Of a stretch of DNA of 64,000 nucleotides, positions 54,426-61,943 are shown piece after piece; position 1 is the stretch's first letter, and each line of letters starts with the position of its first letter. The stretch is taken from assembly GCF_000987835.1 (NCBI RefSeq), contig NZ_CP011308.1, positions 496,001 through 560,000 on the forward strand, in the 5' to 3' direction. Both the position numbers and the translations under genes were made by a program. The notes under the pieces are model-generated. The model saw only the letters and a list, made by a program, of their open reading frames with translations, was not told the origin of the DNA and ran no database searches. The DNA is from Sulfurovum lithotrophicum. GTDB lineage: Bacteria > Campylobacterota > Campylobacteria > Campylobacterales > Sulfurovaceae.

Positions 54426-54476
54426 CTTGCTCCTTATTTTGCATCATCTTTGGATGATGTGGCTCAGTCACTTACT
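54426..54476. terminator. Hairpins at the convergence of guaA and the AT-rich operon
   Basis: CATCATC-TTTG-GATGATG (about 54443-54460) is a perfect 7-bp stem after guaA. A second small stem CTTACT-TTAT-AGTAAG overlaps the end of the operon-side reading frame. Neither has a long T-run; they are candidate terminators only. Confidence 0.4.
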
Positions 54477-54587
54477 TTATAGTAAGCTCTTTCGCATAAA
54501 CTTCCAAACCTGATACAAACTAAGGGCAAACAAGCACAGAACCAAACCTATCAAAGTAATAATGAAAAACAGGCTAAAGTTGTTATC
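54477..54587 (-). other. In-frame membrane-helix segment just after the regulator stop codon
   Basis: Directly after the TAA of the regulator gene the same frame stays open for 36 codons and ends in another TAA. It encodes DNNFSLFFIITLIGL-VLCLFALSLYQVWKFMRKSLL, a single hydrophobic helix with a basic end, typical of a real small membrane protein. There is no ATG, GTG or strong ribosome site (TTG only within the helix). It could be a remnant of a gene cut by the operon's arrival, a read-through extension, or a small protein with an unusual start. Confidence 0.35.
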
Positions 54588-55199
54588 TTAAGTTAATATA
54601 TATGAAAAACTTGCTCTTTCATACTTAATATTAAAACCTATTTTATTGAGTTTAGATATATAAACACGCAGTGTACCATCACTGGAACTTTCCAGGTAAT
54701 CTAAAATATCTTCTTTTAATAAAGGAGTGCCTATTTGAGATAGAAAATACCCTATAAGCTTTGCTTCGTTTGGAGAGAGTTTTATTTTTGTATTTTTTTT
54801 ATATAACTGTTTAGACTCTAAATGAAAGTATAAATCTTTGTAAACCACAACCTTTTTTTTGCTATTGTAAAGTTTTTTAAATTGGTACTCTATCCGTATT
54901 TTTAATTCTTGAAAATTTATTGGTTTAATGATGTAGTCATCTGCAATTTCAAATGCATTTTTAAGATGATGAATATCATAATATTCATCTATAAAAAGTG
55001 TAGGTGTTGTATCTCCTGTCTTTTTCAGTTCCTTGCAAATATCGTAATAGTAATAGTTCAGTACATAAATGTTATATTTGTTTTTGTAAGTTGCATTGTA
55101 AAAGTCTTCTATATCATAGGCAATATCAACTTGATAGGAAATAAGTTCGTTACTGATGAGTGGAGTCAAATCTAAGTCAGCAAGTAAGATTCTATACAT
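54588..55199 (-). CDS. OmpR-type regulator with degenerate receiver
   Basis: A 203-residue two-domain regulator. Residues 1-115 follow a receiver fold (ILLADLDLTPLISNELI, YIIKPINFQELKIRIEY), keeping acidic residues 8 and 10 and the Lys of IIKP. The phospho-accepting Asp is missing: the equivalent of VLLDxxLP reads VLNYYYYD, with Asn48. Residues 120-203 form a winged helix (KLSPNEAKLIGYFLSQIGTPLLKEDILDYL, then TLRVYISKLNKI with the recognition helix). It is the last gene of the AT-rich operon, 2 nt after the TPR gene, and no kinase is in the operon. It probably controls the operon by a phosphorylation-independent signal, which is inference. Confidence 0.82.
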   Translation of the reverse strand: MYRILLADLDLTPLISNELISYQVDIAYDIEDFYNATYKNKYNIYVLNYYYYDICKELKKTGDTTPTLFIDEYYDIHHLKNAFEIADDYIIKPINFQELKIRIEYQFKKLYNSKKKVVVYKDLYFHLESKQLYKKNTKIKLSPNEAKLIGYFLSQIGTPLLKEDILDYLESSSDGTLRVYISKLNKIGFNIKYERASFSYILT

Positions 55200-55201
55200 A
55201 G

Positions 55202-55798
55202 TTACTTGGTGCTTCTAGCAATAATATTGTTAGGATCTAGAAGGAGAATATTTTGATATACTTTTTTATAATCTTTATTGTGTGCAGCTTTATAGCTTAT
55301 TAACAGTTGTTCTAAAAAGAGTATATCTGTAGGATAGAGTTGTAACATTTTTTTACTTACTTCACTCGCGATTGTGTACTTTTGTTGTGCATTTAATGCT
55401 TTTGCCATATAGAGATTTGCATAGTAGTTATAATAATCTTTTTTTAAAAGTTCTGTGGCAACATTTTGTGCATCTTCAAAAGAGTATGTTGCCAAATAGA
55501 TACGAATTAATCCAAGTTTTGGTTCAAGTGCCTGTGTATTTAAAAGTGCTGCTTTTTTATAATATTTAGTAGCGTTCTCATACTTTTTTTGTAAGTAGAA
55601 TAACCACCCTAAACGTAAATTCAGTAAGTAGTTATTAGGATACTTTTTAGATAAAGGGGCCAAAGTTTTTACAGCCTCTTTATATTTAGCTATCTGCTCA
55701 TAACTATAAGATTTAAAATAAGCATTTTTGATCTTTTCAAATGTCCCACTTGAAAATAATAATGAGCTTGTTAATAAAAGTAGAAGCACCTTTTCCAT
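55202..55798 (-). CDS. Exported TPR-repeat protein
   Basis: A 198-residue protein with a short signal peptide (MEKVLLLLLTSSLLFSSG) and about four tetratricopeptide repeats (for example NYLLNLRLGWLFYLQKKYENATKYYKKA and YANLYMAKALNAQQKYTIASEVSKKML, quoted in part: LGWLFYLQKKYENATKYYK). Such proteins act as periplasmic scaffolds. It starts 2 nt after the beta-barrel gene and ends 2 nt before the regulator, so it belongs to the same unit and may connect the barrel with the peptidase-like domain of the channel protein. Confidence 0.8.
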   Translation of the reverse strand: MEKVLLLLLTSSLLFSSGTFEKIKNAYFKSYSYEQIAKYKEAVKTLAPLSKKYPNNYLLNLRLGWLFYLQKKYENATKYYKKAALLNTQALEPKLGLIRIYLATYSFEDAQNVATELLKKDYYNYYANLYMAKALNAQQKYTIASEVSKKMLQLYPTDILFLEQLLISYKAAHNKDYKKVYQNILLLDPNNIIARSTK

Positions 55799-55800
55799 TA

Positions 55801-56697
55801 TTAGAAACTATAACTCATGGAGATAAGAGCAATAGTATTACTTCCTTCAGGCAGTAATGCTAAATTTGCTGCATCATACTCTTCATAGTCATTTTTGATA
55901 TAACTAACGTTTACCTCCAATTTTGGTGTAAAGTAGTACCCCAGTTTCACAGAGTAGGCGTTTTTGAGTAAGTCCTTTGTATTATATACGGTAAAACCGG
56001 CATCTTTTACACCACTTCTCATTTTACCAGCATTGAATTTTAAAGTTGCATAAAATTTTTTATATCCTAAAGTATCGGAGATTTCATAGGACCAATAGCT
56101 TGAATCTTGATAATCATAGGCATGAATAAAGTTTGCAATGAGCGTGACTGTATTTCTTGTATTGAGGTTTATTGCTTTTGAATAGGTGAGTTTGGGACTT
56201 AGCTGCAATAGGCTAACATTTGTTGTCTTGATTAATGAAGTATCGGTATATGCATCGGTATAGTATGAGTAATATGCATCTATACCATAAGTGAGTTTGT
56301 TATAATCTAGCCATTTGTATCCTTCCACACCGATAATTGCTATATATCCATCACCTAAGTCTTTAATAGCTCCTTGTTCGTTGTTGTTCACATAATGCAA
56401 CCCTGCATGCCATGCAAAATTTTTATAATATTTGCCATATTTGAGTGTAATATCGTGCTGTTTTAAGTTTGGTACAGTGGTGTTTTTGTACGTAATATCA
56501 GTATAACCATAAGCAAACTCAAAAAGATAATTCAAATTACCCACACTTGTATAGAAACCTGCAAATTTGGCATTATCTTTAAGTGATTTTGCGTTATTTG
56601 AATCATAATTGACTGTACCTACATAAGGTATTACTGTTTTTACATCTGCCATAACTGCGCTTATACCAAGCAAACCTGTTAAAATTATTTTTTTCAT
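55801..56697 (-). CDS. Outer-membrane beta-barrel protein of the AT-rich operon
   Basis: The 298-residue protein has a signal peptide (MKKIILTGLLGISAVMA) and about twelve amphipathic beta strands with many Tyr/Asn pairs, ending in Phe (ALISMSYSF), the usual signal for outer-membrane assembly. No named family is recognised. Its ATG directly follows the TGA of the channel/peptidase gene (TGAATG), implying coupled translation. In the operon it would provide an outer-membrane route or receptor for whatever the enzymes make or use. Confidence 0.8.
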   Translation of the reverse strand: MKKIILTGLLGISAVMADVKTVIPYVGTVNYDSNNAKSLKDNAKFAGFYTSVGNLNYLFEFAYGYTDITYKNTTVPNLKQHDITLKYGKYYKNFAWHAGLHYVNNNEQGAIKDLGDGYIAIIGVEGYKWLDYNKLTYGIDAYYSYYTDAYTDTSLIKTTNVSLLQLSPKLTYSKAINLNTRNTVTLIANFIHAYDYQDSSYWSYEISDTLGYKKFYATLKFNAGKMRSGVKDAGFTVYNTKDLLKNAYSVKLGYYFTPKLEVNVSYIKNDYEEYDAANLALLPEGSNTIALISMSYSF

Positions 56698-58731
56698 TCA
56701 TTGTCCTTTAACTAATTTTAATTCAACATCATTGTATTTGATGTTTGTGTGACCTTTATGGGTAATATCTAAATGTATCTTTCCATAAGTTGAAACAATT
56801 GTTTTTGAGTTAAAAAAGTACTCACATTCTAGCTTATAAACATCTTTTTTAATGGTTGCAGTCAATTCTATCAAGATTTGACTGAATTTACTTTTGATCA
56901 AGTAAACCGGAAGATAGTCAATATATTTGATACCGTGTGTTTGTATAAAAGGTGTACGCGGTGCCAAGATAAACAGCCATTTTAAGTGTGATTCACCTCC
57001 TTCATATTTATAAAAATAAAATGCATTGGAATCATTATAAAAATAGAGTTTGTTGTGAGTGTCATCTTGTAAATAAAATGAACCATATTCATCCATTTTA
57101 ACAATAAAACTTACTGTTCCTGTTTTATCCCCCTTATAGAAAACATCATATGTAAAGGTATCATCCAAAATGTACAAAAAACGGGAGCTTATACTTTTGT
57201 CTATCAGGACAGAATGAATGCATTCCTCGGGTTGGGGCAGGGTATTGAAGAGCAATCTATCGTCTTTTAAAAATTCATTGAAGGTAAATCTTTGCGTAAA
57301 TCCTCCAATAATTCCCACAGATTGTACTTGAATATGTATATGAGGCTCTGGGGAATAACCACTGTTGCCACACTTGGCAATGATAGTATTTACCTGGACA
57401 TAGCTACCTACTTCCACTGAAACGGAATACTGCATTAAGTGGCTAATTTCAACATAAAAACCCAAATCGCTTTTTATAATAATATAATTACCCCAATTGT
57501 TTATTCTGTCTACTGCGCCTATCGTGTTATCAGGCAAGTCCTGTTTGATATCGACAACATAGCCATTCACCGGTGACAAAATTGATTCTCCGAATGCATA
57601 GTAATCATGGATATTTAGACCTTCGTTTTTATAACTCTTCCCCTCTTTTGTTTTGACAAAATCGTAAGCATATTTGTACTTTCCTTTATGTGTCCAGTTA
57701 CCGTCAAAAGCTTGATAGACCTTCCATTCTCCAGAAAATGGCAGAGATATTTTGGGCTCAAGTTCTCCAAAACGAAAAATTTTACTCAGATAATTGGAAA
57801 GAGATTCTTCCGGTGTTGCTTTTATCTCTGTATTAAACTCTTTATAGTAGATCAAAGAGAGCATAAAAATAAAAACAATAACAGTAATGTTAAAAGGGAG
57901 GGTAAAGACAGGAATAGCATAGTAATTAAACAATATACCAATAGCATCGGTTAAAACAACACTCATTGCAACACCAATCAAAGCCAAAATGAAATTCTTG
58001 AGTGTCGGCAAAAGAAATACCCCGCATAAAGCAATACCTACTAAAATATAGTTAAATGCATAGCCATCATATAATGCCTGTGTAAAAGAGCCAAGTAGAA
58101 AACTATGAATCCCCACTCCTGCATAAAAACCAACTAAAGCCATAATCGCAGTAATACGAGAAAAGTATAACACGAGTGCAAACATCGCTATGCCTGCTAT
58201 GTTTGAGGGTAAGAAAAAAATGGTGCCAAAAGATTTAAAAAAGGCACTTATAGCAAGAGGAAAGTTTAGGTCAAATCTAGCACTATTGTTGACAAGTGTT
58301 GAGAGAAGCCCAGAGTATTTGAGTGATGCAAGATAAACAAACATTGTCACAATAGAAAAAGGCAGAGAGAGTATAGGGATTTTATAGAGACTAAAAAGGC
58401 GATTAAGCATAAAGGAAAGCATAAAAGTAAAAGAGGAGACAATCGCAATGAGTGCGATACTCATCAGCGAAGGGGAAAAGATATACCCTATCCCCATCCC
58501 TACCAATAGAGAGTTATAGATATAGAATCCTTGAGCCAAATAGGCCTCTTTAAACTCTAGATACTCAGCAAATGCAATGGCAAAAGCAACGGCAACAAGC
58601 CCACTAATAGCAACAGATGGATTTATAAAAGTAATGACTAAGAGTGCAAGACCTGCATACTTGTTATTTAAAAATAACAGTGCACTGTAGGGTTTAAGCG
58701 CACTATAGAAAAGACTTTTATAATTTTCCAT
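56698..58731 (-). CDS. Urea-transporter-like channel fused to an M23 peptidase-like domain
   Basis: This 677-residue fusion has two parts. Residues 1-300 are a membrane domain with about ten helices and the twofold urea-transporter pattern: YNSLLVGMGIG and SLPFSI in the first half, FNYILVGIAL and TLPFNI in the second. Residues about 320-480 match M23/LytM endopeptidases: QAFDGNWTHKGKYKYAYDF (zinc His and Asp), a lysostaphin-like core GYVVDI, ISHL, and the closing HxH in PEPHIHIQ. The last 190 residues are beta-rich and unassigned. It lies 8 nt after the decarboxylase and abuts the barrel gene. Whether urea is the real substrate is unknown; a related small polar molecule is possible. Confidence 0.85.
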   Translation of the reverse strand: MENYKSLFYSALKPYSALLFLNNKYAGLALLVITFINPSVAISGLVAVAFAIAFAEYLEFKEAYLAQGFYIYNSLLVGMGIGYIFSPSLMSIALIAIVSSFTFMLSFMLNRLFSLYKIPILSLPFSIVTMFVYLASLKYSGLLSTLVNNSARFDLNFPLAISAFFKSFGTIFFLPSNIAGIAMFALVLYFSRITAIMALVGFYAGVGIHSFLLGSFTQALYDGYAFNYILVGIALCGVFLLPTLKNFILALIGVAMSVVLTDAIGILFNYYAIPVFTLPFNITVIVFIFMLSLIYYKEFNTEIKATPEESLSNYLSKIFRFGELEPKISLPFSGEWKVYQAFDGNWTHKGKYKYAYDFVKTKEGKSYKNEGLNIHDYYAFGESILSPVNGYVVDIKQDLPDNTIGAVDRINNWGNYIIIKSDLGFYVEISHLMQYSVSVEVGSYVQVNTIIAKCGNSGYSPEPHIHIQVQSVGIIGGFTQRFTFNEFLKDDRLLFNTLPQPEECIHSVLIDKSISSRFLYILDDTFTYDVFYKGDKTGTVSFIVKMDEYGSFYLQDDTHNKLYFYNDSNAFYFYKYEGGESHLKWLFILAPRTPFIQTHGIKYIDYLPVYLIKSKFSQILIELTATIKKDVYKLECEYFFNSKTIVSTYGKIHLDITHKGHTNIKYNDVELKLVKGQ

Positions 58732-58739
58732 GCTCTTTT

Positions 58740-60068
58740 TTATACCTCTTTATAATTGACTGTTGCCAAATCATCCACTTCTTTAATCAGACGTGCTTTA
58801 CCTTCAGTATCTATCAGTACCACTGCTGGCTTATAGCGAATAAACTGCATTGATTGGGTATAGTTATAAGCACCCACTGGAGAGATAGTAAGCACACTGC
58901 CTCTATCAAGGGCTGGCAACATCAAATGTTCCTCAATCACATCAATATTCATACAAAGAGGACCATTGAGCATAGATGGCTCATTTTCTCCCTCATAATG
59001 TTTATCAAGTTCAATGTTAAAGTTATACCATGTCGAAGTATAAAGTAGGTTGACACCAGCATCTAAGATATACCCTTTTTTGCCATCTGGAAATCTTTTA
59101 TATCCGTGCACAGAAGTGAGTAGATAGCCCGCTTCATCTATCATCGCTCGTCCTGTTTCTAGGTAGAGTTTCGGTAGTTTTTCACTTTTGTTGTTTACAT
59201 AAATCGCATCGGTAATTGCCTGTGCATAATCATCGGCTGTTGGGACAATAACATCTGCTGATTGATAGACGCCTTTGAGGTTAGATTTACTTGCAAATCC
59301 ACCACCAAGGTCAATGTACTCTATCTCAGCATTAAAATCATTTTCCACTTGTGCTTTGAGTTGCATGATTTTTGTTGTTGCCACCTTATAAGCATTGGCA
59401 TCAAGCATAAAAGTTCCGATGTGTGAGTGAATACCATTTAAGTACATTTTCCCACCATCATACATGCGTTTTATCGCCTCATAGGCATCCCCACTCTCGT
59501 AGTTAAATCCAAAACGAGACCATTGTGGATAGGTTCCTGTATCCATATTGATACGGATGGCAACAGGGATTTTCATACCTAACTCATCTGCAATTTTTTC
59601 TAAATCATTAAGTTCAAAAAGGTTGTCCACATGAATTTTTGCACCCTCTTGCACAGCAATTTTCAGATCTTCATAAGGCTTATAGGGGCCATTGAAAATA
59701 ATATCTTTTCCTTCTATTCCTAAAGCTCTTGCTTTTTGGTACTCAAACTCACTTACCACCTCTGCAATAGAGCCAAGATTGTGAAATACTTTACAAATCT
59801 CATTAAGATAGTTTGTTTTATAGCTCCAGCCAAAAGTGACATCAGGGTAACGAGAACTAAAAGCAGAGTAGAGTGTGTTGTACTTCTCTTCTATCTGTCT
59901 TTGTGAAAAAACAAAAATTGGACTTCCATATTTTTCTGTCAATTCATTAACACTCACTCCATCTATCTCTGTACGGATATTTTGTGTTTTTAGAGGACTC
60001 CCATATTTTGAAGCCATTGCAAACTCTATTTTATTAATTGTTGGTTTTTCATACTTTACATCACTCAT
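58740..60068 (-). CDS. PLP-dependent decarboxylase, diaminopimelate-decarboxylase family
   Basis: A 442-residue fold-type III PLP enzyme (LysA/ornithine-decarboxylase clan). The PLP lysine is Lys84 in GWSYKTN, His216 lies in HSHIGT, the glycine loop GGGF starts at 255, and the ETGR phosphate motif (usually EPGR) is at 304-307. Cys372 of the active site is kept, but the following CESGD that recognises substrate in LysA reads CMNID (372-376), so the substrate is probably not diaminopimelate. The first 35 residues are an extra N-terminal piece. It starts one base after the ATP-grasp stop. Together they suggest ligation followed by decarboxylation of an amino-acid-like compound. Confidence 0.88.
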   Translation of the reverse strand: MSDVKYEKPTINKIEFAMASKYGSPLKTQNIRTEIDGVSVNELTEKYGSPIFVFSQRQIEEKYNTLYSAFSSRYPDVTFGWSYKTNYLNEICKVFHNLGSIAEVVSEFEYQKARALGIEGKDIIFNGPYKPYEDLKIAVQEGAKIHVDNLFELNDLEKIADELGMKIPVAIRINMDTGTYPQWSRFGFNYESGDAYEAIKRMYDGGKMYLNGIHSHIGTFMLDANAYKVATTKIMQLKAQVENDFNAEIEYIDLGGGFASKSNLKGVYQSADVIVPTADDYAQAITDAIYVNNKSEKLPKLYLETGRAMIDEAGYLLTSVHGYKRFPDGKKGYILDAGVNLLYTSTWYNFNIELDKHYEGENEPSMLNGPLCMNIDVIEEHLMLPALDRGSVLTISPVGAYNYTQSMQFIRYKPAVVLIDTEGKARLIKEVDDLATVNYKEV

Positions 60069-60069
60069 C

Positions 60070-61083
60070 TTATAATTCCTTTTTTGATAATAGTTGCATA
60101 TAATCTGTAAAATCAGTCACAAGTTCTTGTGTGTATCTGACATACATCTTGTTTTGTGGATACTCTAGTTCAGGCTCATTATCAATACCTTGCATAATAT
60201 CGACGACCATCTGTGGCAAATTCACACCAATCTCTGTTGCAAAATGTACCCATGCTGGAAAACGCGGATTGATCTCTATCATAAAGACTTGATTCATATT
60301 GACAATACACTCTAACTCAAAAGGACCCTTCCATTTTGTAAGTGCTACAAAGTCTTTTGCCATTTGCATCATTTTATCATTTTGAATCGTAACACCCGTC
60401 CAAATTTTCCCAATCTCCGTTGTTGTTAACTTTTTAATAGCAACAGCACCTTTGAGCTCTCCCTTACCATCACCAACGCCAACAAGATTCAGCTCTTCTC
60501 CCGTGACCACTTCTTGAACAAGTACAGGAAATCCCCACTCATTTGAAATTTTGTAAAAATTATCTATGGCACTCTCAAGGTTATACGACATGTAAGCCTT
60601 GTAGTAATTCCCTTTAACCATAAGAGGAAAATTGGATGTTTTTGTACACTCAACAAGCTCAGAAATACTACTCACTTCATAGGTTTTTGGATAGGTAATC
60701 CCTAGTTTTTCGGAGAGTCCATCGAGTTTGTTTTTATTGCGAAGTTCAAAGTTCTCTAAAGAGGGTAAACAGAGTTTTATCCCCATCGCTTCTATATCAT
60801 CTTGATACTTTATATATAATGGAAGTTCTGCATCCAAACAAGGAATCACCGCATCTAAACCTTCTTGTGATTGAATATACTCTAAGCGATTTTTGAGTTC
60901 ATGAAAACCTAAAGAGGGGTAAGGCATCAGATAGGTTTTTCCTGTCATGTGCATATAATTTCCAGGTTCATTCGCATCATAAGAGAAGCCAACAATCTCA
61001 TTTTTTACTTGAATTCCTTTTATGACAGGAATTCCTGGTGCAGGATTATCTGTATTGTTAAGTCCACTGACAGCAACTTTCAT
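60070..61083 (-). CDS. ATP-grasp ligase (CarB-like fold)
   Basis: A 337-residue ATP-grasp enzyme. The N-terminal domain (MKVAVSGLNNTDNPAPGIPVIKGI) is of the pre-ATP-grasp type. The ATP-grasp domain starts near residue 110 (RNKNKLDGLSEKLGI). Lys in FPLMVKGNYYKAY and the loop VLVQEVVTGEELNLVG bind nucleotide; the metal-binding pair is in PFELECIVN and FMIEINPRFPAWVHFA. Such enzymes join a carboxylate to an amine through an acyl-phosphate. It overlaps the PqqD-like gene by 4 bp (ATGA), implying close cooperation. Substrate unknown. Confidence 0.86.
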   Translation of the reverse strand: MKVAVSGLNNTDNPAPGIPVIKGIQVKNEIVGFSYDANEPGNYMHMTGKTYLMPYPSLGFHELKNRLEYIQSQEGLDAVIPCLDAELPLYIKYQDDIEAMGIKLCLPSLENFELRNKNKLDGLSEKLGITYPKTYEVSSISELVECTKTSNFPLMVKGNYYKAYMSYNLESAIDNFYKISNEWGFPVLVQEVVTGEELNLVGVGDGKGELKGAVAIKKLTTTEIGKIWTGVTIQNDKMMQMAKDFVALTKWKGPFELECIVNMNQVFMIEINPRFPAWVHFATEIGVNLPQMVVDIMQGIDNEPELEYPQNKMYVRYTQELVTDFTDYMQLLSKKEL

Positions 61084-61319
61084 GAGAGCAATCCGTAAAT
61101 TTTTAATTTAGACAAAAAATCACTCACATCTATAAAAAGCTCACGCTTAGGAACCTCATATTTTGAAGCTAACTCTTCAATAATTTCATCTTTTGTTTTA
61201 TGTTGCTTTAGGAGAGTGACAATCTCTTTTCCCGTGCCATTAAGCTGGTAACTGTTCCCCATCATTGGATAAAACACAATATTGTTTTCATCTACTACTA
61301 ATTGATTGATCGTATTCAT
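61080..61319 (-). CDS. PqqD-like small protein
   Basis: A 79-residue protein with the PqqD/RiPP-recognition-element pattern: an N-terminal beta hairpin (QLVVDENNIVFYPMMGNSYQLNGTGKEIVTLL, in part YQLNGTGKEIVTLL) followed by helices with TKDEIIEELASKY and a final DFLSKLKIYGLL. PqqD-like proteins present peptides to modifying enzymes or act as small adaptors. It is the first gene of the operon. ATG 61319 (or GTG 61322) follows AAGGA at good spacing. No candidate precursor peptide was found next to it. Confidence 0.78.
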   Translation of the reverse strand: MNTINQLVVDENNIVFYPMMGNSYQLNGTGKEIVTLLKQHKTKDEIIEELASKYEVPKRELFIDVSDFLSKLKIYGLLS

Positions 61320-61340
61320 CACGCATCCTTGTGAGTTTTA

Positions 61341-61346
61341 ATTATA
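61341..61346 (-). promoter_or_regulatory. -10 box of the AT-rich operon
   Basis: TATAAT on the minus strand, 22 bp before the first start codon, predicts a short leader with AAGGA. The gap between it and the heptamer repeat (61347-61528) is non-coding by inspection and shows no other signal. Confidence 0.5.
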
Positions 61347-61528
61347 GAAGTCTAAGCTATAAGTGTTAGTAAATTGTTAATGAGGTGGAAGAATAAGAAT
61401 GATGCTATGAGTCAAACCTAGATCAATCAAAAACAGCTCCTTCGCGACAACCCTCAAAGATGACGCCAAATAGGAAAAATTATTTGTTTGGCCTTTAAGG
61501 TACATACAATCTACAATATGAAAAAGTT

Positions 61529-61572
61529 CTTAACTCTTAACTCTTAACTCTTAACTCTTAACTCTTAACTCT
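61529..61572 (+). repeat. Six perfect heptamer repeats upstream of a lipoprotein gene
   Basis: CTTAACT is repeated six times without change (61529-61570), followed by CT. It ends 8 bp before the TATACT box of the lipoprotein promoter, so the -35 region lies inside the repeat. Perfect tandem copies at a promoter are prone to slipped-strand change in copy number. Confidence 0.85.
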
Positions 61573-61607: not shown

Positions 61608-61943
61608 ATGAAAAGAAGATTGACGATAGCATTGTCCGCTGTAGTATTGGCAGGTATTTTCTCAGGCTGTGCGAATGAATATATTGATGTGCCTTTTACC
61701 GCTACGGATAAAGTCAGTGCGTGTGCCAAAACAGAGAAAGATCTAGCCAAAGTCGATGAATTCATCAGTAAGATCAATGCAATGCCTGCATCACAGGTTG
61801 AAGAGTATATTGCCGCACTGCCTGCGCCGGATATCACCAACAGTTCGGAAAAACGTCCGGTACTGAGAGATGCCAATGCACGGAAAGATCAGCTCAAGGC
61901 AAAACAGCAGCAGTTAGGATGTGAGGTCCAGGCTAAAAAATAG
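61608..61943 (+). CDS. Lipoprotein of unknown function
   Basis: A 111-residue lipoprotein: signal MKRRLTIALSAVVLAGIFSG with lipobox FSGC, lipid on Cys21. The mature part has two further Cys (SACAKTE, LGCEVQ), a helical stretch (KDLAKVDEFISKINAMPASQVEEY, in part KVDEFISKINAMPASQ) and a Lys/Gln-rich end. No family recognised. Base composition is normal for the genome, unlike the AT-rich operon to its left. The promoter region carries the perfect heptamer repeat, so its expression may vary between cells. It converges on sixA with a 4-nt gap. Confidence 0.8.
   Translation: MKRRLTIALSAVVLAGIFSGCANEYIDVPFTATDKVSACAKTEKDLAKVDEFISKINAMPASQVEEYIAALPAPDITNSSEKRPVLRDANARKDQLKAKQQQLGCEVQAKK

Follow-up and report, generated by a model that had tools for sequence, protein, structure and literature searches.

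A laterally acquired seven-gene operon of Sulfurovum lithotrophicum encoding a UT-type channel fused to an M23 metallopeptidase

Introduction

The chromosome of Sulfurovum lithotrophicum (2.22 Mb, one contig) carries on its minus strand an operon of seven genes which runs from position 61322 to 54588 of the window, that is, of the whole stretch of 64,000 nucleotides that was analysed. The locus raises the question of what a PqqD-like protein, an ATP-grasp ligase, a PLP decarboxylase, a UT-type channel fused to an M23 metallopeptidase, a predicted outer-membrane barrel, a TPR protein and an OmpR-family regulator may accomplish together, and of how they came to reside between guaA and the small gene at 61608. 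The analysis confirms the operon and shows it to be conserved and mobile; as far as the open-access literature goes it is also undescribed, since no published description of either the UT-M23 fusion or the operon was found there. Its genes are inherited strictly together, move laterally and belong to a phylum with a prominent place in the communities of deep-sea vents, and no report of its product was found.

Organisation and conservation of the operon

The first gene encodes a small PqqD-like (RRE) putative adaptor of 80 aa (61080..61322, minus strand like all of the following) which starts at GTG 61322 or ATG 61319. It is followed by a PRK12767-like ATP-grasp ligase of 337 aa (60070..61083), an alanine-racemase-fold PLP decarboxylase of 442 aa that resembles FigC and BtrK (58740..60068; PF02784/PF00278), and the 677 aa fusion of a UT-type channel, an M23 metallopeptidase and a C-terminal domain (56698..58731; PF03253 and PF01551). 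The three remaining genes encode a predicted outer-membrane beta-barrel of 298 aa (55801..56697), a TPR protein of 198 aa, assigned to the periplasm by its hydrophobic N-terminal signal peptide (55202..55798), and an OmpR-family regulator of 203 aa with a degenerate receiver (54588..55199; NCBIfam). From 5' to 3' the genes are joined by a 4-nt overlap and then by gaps of 1, 8, 0, 2 and 2 nt, which confirms the same-strand operon proposed by the first-pass annotation, whose range of 54477-61346 extends slightly past the operon genes. The single promoter that it noted is likewise borne out, with a -10 TATAAT at 61346-61341, and the family assignments stood for the PqqD-like, ATP-grasp, decarboxylase (PF02784 and PF00278), UT, M23, TPR and OmpR-type regulator proteins, whereas the barrel of the window has no Pfam match.

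In a sample of 397 genomes of the Campylobacterota, in which UT proteins were counted above the Pfam cut-off and ATP-grasp proteins at E<=1e-12, the UT domain occurs in 19 genomes and the ATP-grasp ligase in 18, all 18 of which also contain the UT domain (Fisher p ~3e-30, for genomes that are not independent of each other). The fusion strictly accompanies the ATP-grasp and decarboxylase genes, as the annotation had suggested should be looked for. In every full locus whose neighbourhood was compared the order PqqD - ATP-grasp - decarboxylase - UT-M23 is constant; the TPR, regulator and barrel genes follow or flank this four-gene core in an order that varies between loci, and five loci lack the regulator gene. 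The cluster is kept down to approximately 45% identity for UT-M23 and 25% for the barrel, and the seven-gene set is a conserved unit. The nineteenth UT genome (G375) encodes an unfused UT of approximately 273 aa outside any operon-like cluster (L075:6926-7747, 273 aa). With its Q/Q pore residues and an agmatinase-like gene (L075:10061-11122) at a distance of about 2.3 kb, it is a candidate for an ordinary urea channel. Two further loci, L080 and L081, are decaying copies of the operon, with split reading frames for the decarboxylase and UT-M23. Searches of plasmids and phages returned single-domain matches only for UT-M23 and distant matches only for the two enzymes, and no defence-family match was obtained for the operon.

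Lateral acquisition

The operon has a GC content of 34.0% as against 45.3% in the remainder of the window, which is the minimum among all same-sized sliding windows over 79 kb; GC3 of its genes is 0.23-0.33, and their codon usage lies 2.2-5.9 sd over the mean distance of 27 native genes. The lower GC originally remarked upon is confirmed. G024, the closest relative compared, is 98.6% and 98.0% identical in the two flanks and has an empty site, where the equivalent of window position 54522 connects to 61487 across approximately 45 bp. The segment missing from this relative (54523..61486) was inserted laterally, with guaA on one side and the gene at 61608 on the other. In comparison with the genome of L032, a bin titled Sulfurimonas, guaA is 70% identical while the ATP-grasp and decarboxylase genes are 95.5% and 96.2% identical; a genome of the same genus (G006) shows the reverse pattern, with 88% for guaA and 65% for UT-M23. 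The empty site, together with 70% identity in guaA against 95-96% in the enzymes of such donor-like bins, identifies the copy in the window as a recent lateral gain from a distant relative. The proposal of lateral acquisition is hence upheld, and the genes, which co-occur elsewhere, are not fixed vertical genes of the clade. Several carriers are metagenome bins titled Sulfurimonas, and in the loci so titled the GC content of the operon is near that of their own flanks.

The insertion junction sits within a palindromic repeat of approximately 106 bp (DNA fold z = -4.3) which is intact in G024 and of which remnants form the left (54435..54522, plus strand) and right (61435..61481) borders of the insertion in the window. 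These repeats, noted also in L131, are MITE- or REP-like and form a family of which both this genome and G024 contain several more, degenerate copies. The heptanucleotide TCTTAAC is repeated 6.4 times at 61528-61572, ahead of the small gene at 61608; the array is two units longer in G024, and the promoter spacing may vary accordingly.

The PqqD-like protein and the two enzymes

The PqqD-like protein has the PqqD fold (PF05402, E=1.9e-14, 54 bits against a cut-off of 23.4) and conserves D65, D68, F69, K72, G77 and L78 across 24 loci, while the conservation of its C-terminus is too low for a loading site. It has no match to acyl carrier proteins and no conserved Ser to which phosphopantetheine could be attached. 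The ATP-grasp protein matches PF15632 with 35.4 bits and PRK12767 with E=2e-24, and E256, E258, E270 and N272 are conserved.

The decarboxylase retains the PLP lysine K84 and the catalytic C372, and its best solved relative in phmmer searches is FigC, the N-citrylornithine decarboxylase (7kh2). It falls below the cut-offs of both the DAP decarboxylase family (TIGR01048, 229.9 versus 297.9 bits) and the FigC/FslC family (NF041039, 220.4 versus 500 bits). LysA binds DAP through an Arg and a Glu. Where the genome's own LysA reads CESGD and LIRPS, the operon enzyme reads CMNID and LLYTST (CES to CMN, IRP to YTS), and these positions are at least 95% conserved over its homologues. Both recognition residues are therefore absent, and classification as a LysA-type DAP decarboxylase finds no support; true lysA and speA genes are located elsewhere in the genome. 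FigC, SbnH, MccE and BtrK form one clade of enzymes that act on conjugated amino acids, the substrate of BtrK being a carrier-bound glutamate (PMC7857480).

Neither a radical SAM nor a precursor peptide gene was found among the seven genes by family scans or among the conserved neighbours by eye, and family scans of the seven genes together with neighbour clustering revealed no PEARL ligase or carrier peptide. A cluster-encoded RiPP precursor was considered and rejected because of the little space upstream of the operon in loci that adjoin guaB or a TRAP-type gene, which amounts to 62-87 nt where measured.

The UT-M23 fusion protein

The full-length fusion is present in 21 aligned loci. Its UT domain (residues 11-290, 57862..58701, minus strand) has the UT fold (PF03253, E 1.5e-61, 208 bits) and matches the DvUT structures 3k3f and 3me1 over approximately 300 residues (E ~1e-19 by phmmer, 7e-31 by profile); the domain aligns with DvUT over its own length, the C-terminal tail of DvUT included, directly after which the M23 part starts. 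The M23 domain (PF01551, E 1e-9) spans residues 329-471 (57319..57747, minus strand), and a C-terminal domain without a family match, conserved in the motif (N)RLYFY...FYFYxYEG, spans residues 490-677 (56701..57264, minus strand). Structure prediction of the fusion gave a mean pLDDT of 32 from 5 sequences and was unusable.

DvUT and the human UTs have ten transmembrane helices in a pseudo-twofold arrangement (PMC10541013). Such an arrangement implies that both ends of the UT domain lie on one side of the membrane. In UT-B the side that bears both ends is the cytoplasmic one. A tally of conserved K and R residues gave 13.2 in the loops that this orientation places inside versus 2.0 in those outside, with loop limits set by hand from hydropathy, and no hydrophobic stretch occurs after residue 296. 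Because of the UT homology, the positive-inside charge and the lack of a later hydrophobic segment, the C-terminus of the channel and with it the M23 domain are predicted to face the cytoplasm. The residues H348, D357, H431, H464 and H466, which comprise the zinc ligands (H, D and HxH) and the active site, are invariant in 24 of 24 sequences. Among plasmid records the closest M23 relatives are Thermus and haloarchaeal proteins with 33-39% identity, which likewise come after membrane helices and a basic segment.

The pore differs from that of DvUT at the urea-contacting positions. Q24 of DvUT is replaced by A or S in 22 of 24 fused UTs and E187 by T or S in 21 of 24 (A17 and T170 in the window), and a single Glu is retained at position 17 in 2 and at position 170 in 3 of the 24, whereas the lone UT of G375 has Q/Q. 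A search of 23 genomes for the urease alpha subunit gave three short partial matches and nothing convincing, and PF02682, an allophanate-hydrolase-type domain, occurs in just 1 of 13 genomes. With A/S and T mostly in place of Q/E and no convincing urease found, the fused channel is probably not one for urea.

The barrel and the TPR protein

The assignment of the barrel is derived from a signal peptide and a C-terminal Phe read from the sequence, and from one homologue that matches OMP_b-brl (E=0.00055). A search with the barrel profile gave no match to a solved structure, and its predicted structure was unusable (pLDDT 30, 4 sequences). The best family match of the TPR protein has E=8e-10.

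The regulator and its box

The regulator matches Pfam weakly and is of the OmpR type by NCBIfam (E 6e-14). Its receiver is without a clear phospho-acceptor Asp in all loci except L069 and L070, where the receiver is intact and the regulator adjoins a gene for a histidine-kinase-like membrane protein, identified by reading rather than by family scan; no such neighbour was found beside the degenerate-receiver regulators elsewhere. In the promoter the motif TTWAC-N6-TTWAC, a direct repeat spaced by 11 bp, is located 36-61 nt ahead of the first gene and before the TATAAT-like -10 element (in the window TTAAC-N6-CTAAC followed by TATAAT, 61341..61380, minus strand). A direct-repeat spacing of 11 bp is typical of OmpR-family sites. 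The box reaches a score of 9/10 or more in each of the 16 loci in which a regulator gene was detected and in one of the five others, being present in L037 and missing from L038, L065, L077 and L079 (hypergeometric 8e-4, or 5.6e-4 when two undetermined loci are added). In single loci it is often non-significant against shuffled sequences (p 0.053 for the window), and the argument lies in the pattern across loci, where the presence of the box follows that of the regulator gene encoded in the operon. One other match to the box plus TATAAT exists in the same genome, in a locus with a gene read as a cytochrome-biogenesis-type membrane protein.

Proposed function and alternative explanations

Several characterised systems share parts of this gene set. 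In pearlin clusters an RRE protein occurs together with a C-terminal amino-acid ligase and modifying enzymes, and with a transporter and a metalloprotease bound to the membrane (PMC9303977). The operon may hold a counterpart of each component of these PEARL pathways (tgl, tmo) except the carrier, but it lacks a PEARL or carrier-peptide gene, uses an ATP-grasp enzyme and a decarboxylase instead, and its protease is an M23 domain fused to a UT. The BtrI-BtrJ-BtrK module of butirosin similarly combines a small protein, an ATP-grasp ligase and an alanine-racemase-fold decarboxylase, although the operon has a PqqD fold in place of the acyl carrier protein and adds a whole putative release and export module. 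Rhizoferrin synthesis by FigA/FigC (FslA/FslC) also starts with a ligation, after which a homologous enzyme decarboxylates the conjugate; here the operon differs in employing ATP-grasp rather than an NIS synthetase and in the 220 bits of its decarboxylase against the FslC cut-off of 500.

It is proposed that the operon is a horizontally mobile, self-regulated system for biosynthesis and release, a reading that is advanced tentatively and whose chances as a whole fall well short of even. In the cytoplasm, the PqqD-like adaptor would present the ATP-grasp enzyme with a peptide or an amino acid as the partner for amide-bond formation, and the decarboxylase, like FigC and BtrK, would then strip the alpha-carboxylate from a bulky conjugated amino acid. 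The M23 domain at the cytoplasmic mouth of the fused pore might cut the amide and free a small decarboxylated product, which could exit via the UT pore, the periplasm with its TPR protein and the outer-membrane barrel, while the regulator would bind the TTWAC-N6-TTWAC box and control the operon. We infer the order of these steps, the substrate and the direction of transport, as well as the chemistry of the product, which is probably a small compound derived from an amino acid. The central element, an M23 enzyme that completes an envelope-spanning pathway by cutting an enzyme- or carrier-bound product straight into the pore through which it is exported, is itself possible but doubtful. The proposal is favoured by the co-occurrence in 18 of 18 genomes, the invariant M23 residues, the FigC-like decarboxylase, the positive-inside tally, the pearlin parallel, the changed pore residues and the association of regulator and box; it is weakened by the lack of an encoded carrier or precursor peptide, the poor conservation of the PqqD C-terminus, the Glu kept by some UTs and a topology that is drawn from homology and charge. 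Ligation and decarboxylation of an amino-acid-like compound that is moved across both membranes, as the first-pass annotation had it, remains the best reading.

The absence of a carrier peptide gene fits a carrier-free pathway, for which FigA/FigC provide a precedent, FigC acting on N-citrylornithine (PMC7857480). Here the ATP-grasp enzyme would join two small acids or amines, the decarboxylase would act on the conjugate, the PqqD-like protein would be only a structural subunit and the M23 domain would serve the channel as sensor or gate; that all catalytic residues of M23 are invariant suggests catalysis over gating, and this scheme is considered unlikely. The pathway could also be read in the opposite direction, as UT channels are passive and would permit inward flow, and cleavage by a peptidase at the inner mouth would keep the substrate trapped. 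The barrel and UT would then admit a peptide- or amide-like compound which M23 hydrolyses on entry and the ligase and decarboxylase process further, for scavenging or detoxification, but an ATP-consuming ligase and a PqqD adaptor are typical of synthesis rather than catabolism, which renders such uptake unlikely. The cell-wall role offered earlier is favoured by the fact that most M23 enzymes are peptidoglycan hydrolases and by the homology of the decarboxylase to LysA; M23 would in that case cut peptidoglycan and the LysA-like enzyme would act on DAP-containing muropeptides. Haloarchaea have no peptidoglycan. The presence of close M23 relatives in these organisms, also after membrane helices, the predicted cytoplasmic location of M23, the missing DAP-binding Arg and Glu and the separate true lysA make that role very improbable. 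An operon for urea nutrition or urea export, with the other genes as accessories, draws on the 208 bits for PF03253; given the exchange of the pore Q/E for A/S and T, against Q/Q in the lone UT, with no convincing urease in 23 genomes and PF02682 in 1 of 13, it is highly improbable, and the plain urea channel of the original assignment finds no support.

If release into the channel as proposed is true, the M23 enzyme would be one that works inside the cell instead of on the wall, the UT pore would carry something other than urea, and biosynthesis would be coupled to export in a new way. In comparison with DvUT and the bacterial urea transporters, which share the UT fold over approximately 300 residues, the operon channel adds the C-terminal M23 and an unmatched domain and has mostly lost the urea-contacting Q/E. 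Membrane-anchored M23 proteins of the same subfamily (L091:3740-4666 and L092:3641-4600) are found on haloarchaeal and Thermus plasmids, where membrane helices are again followed by basic residues, but they are encoded by stand-alone genes and carry no channel.
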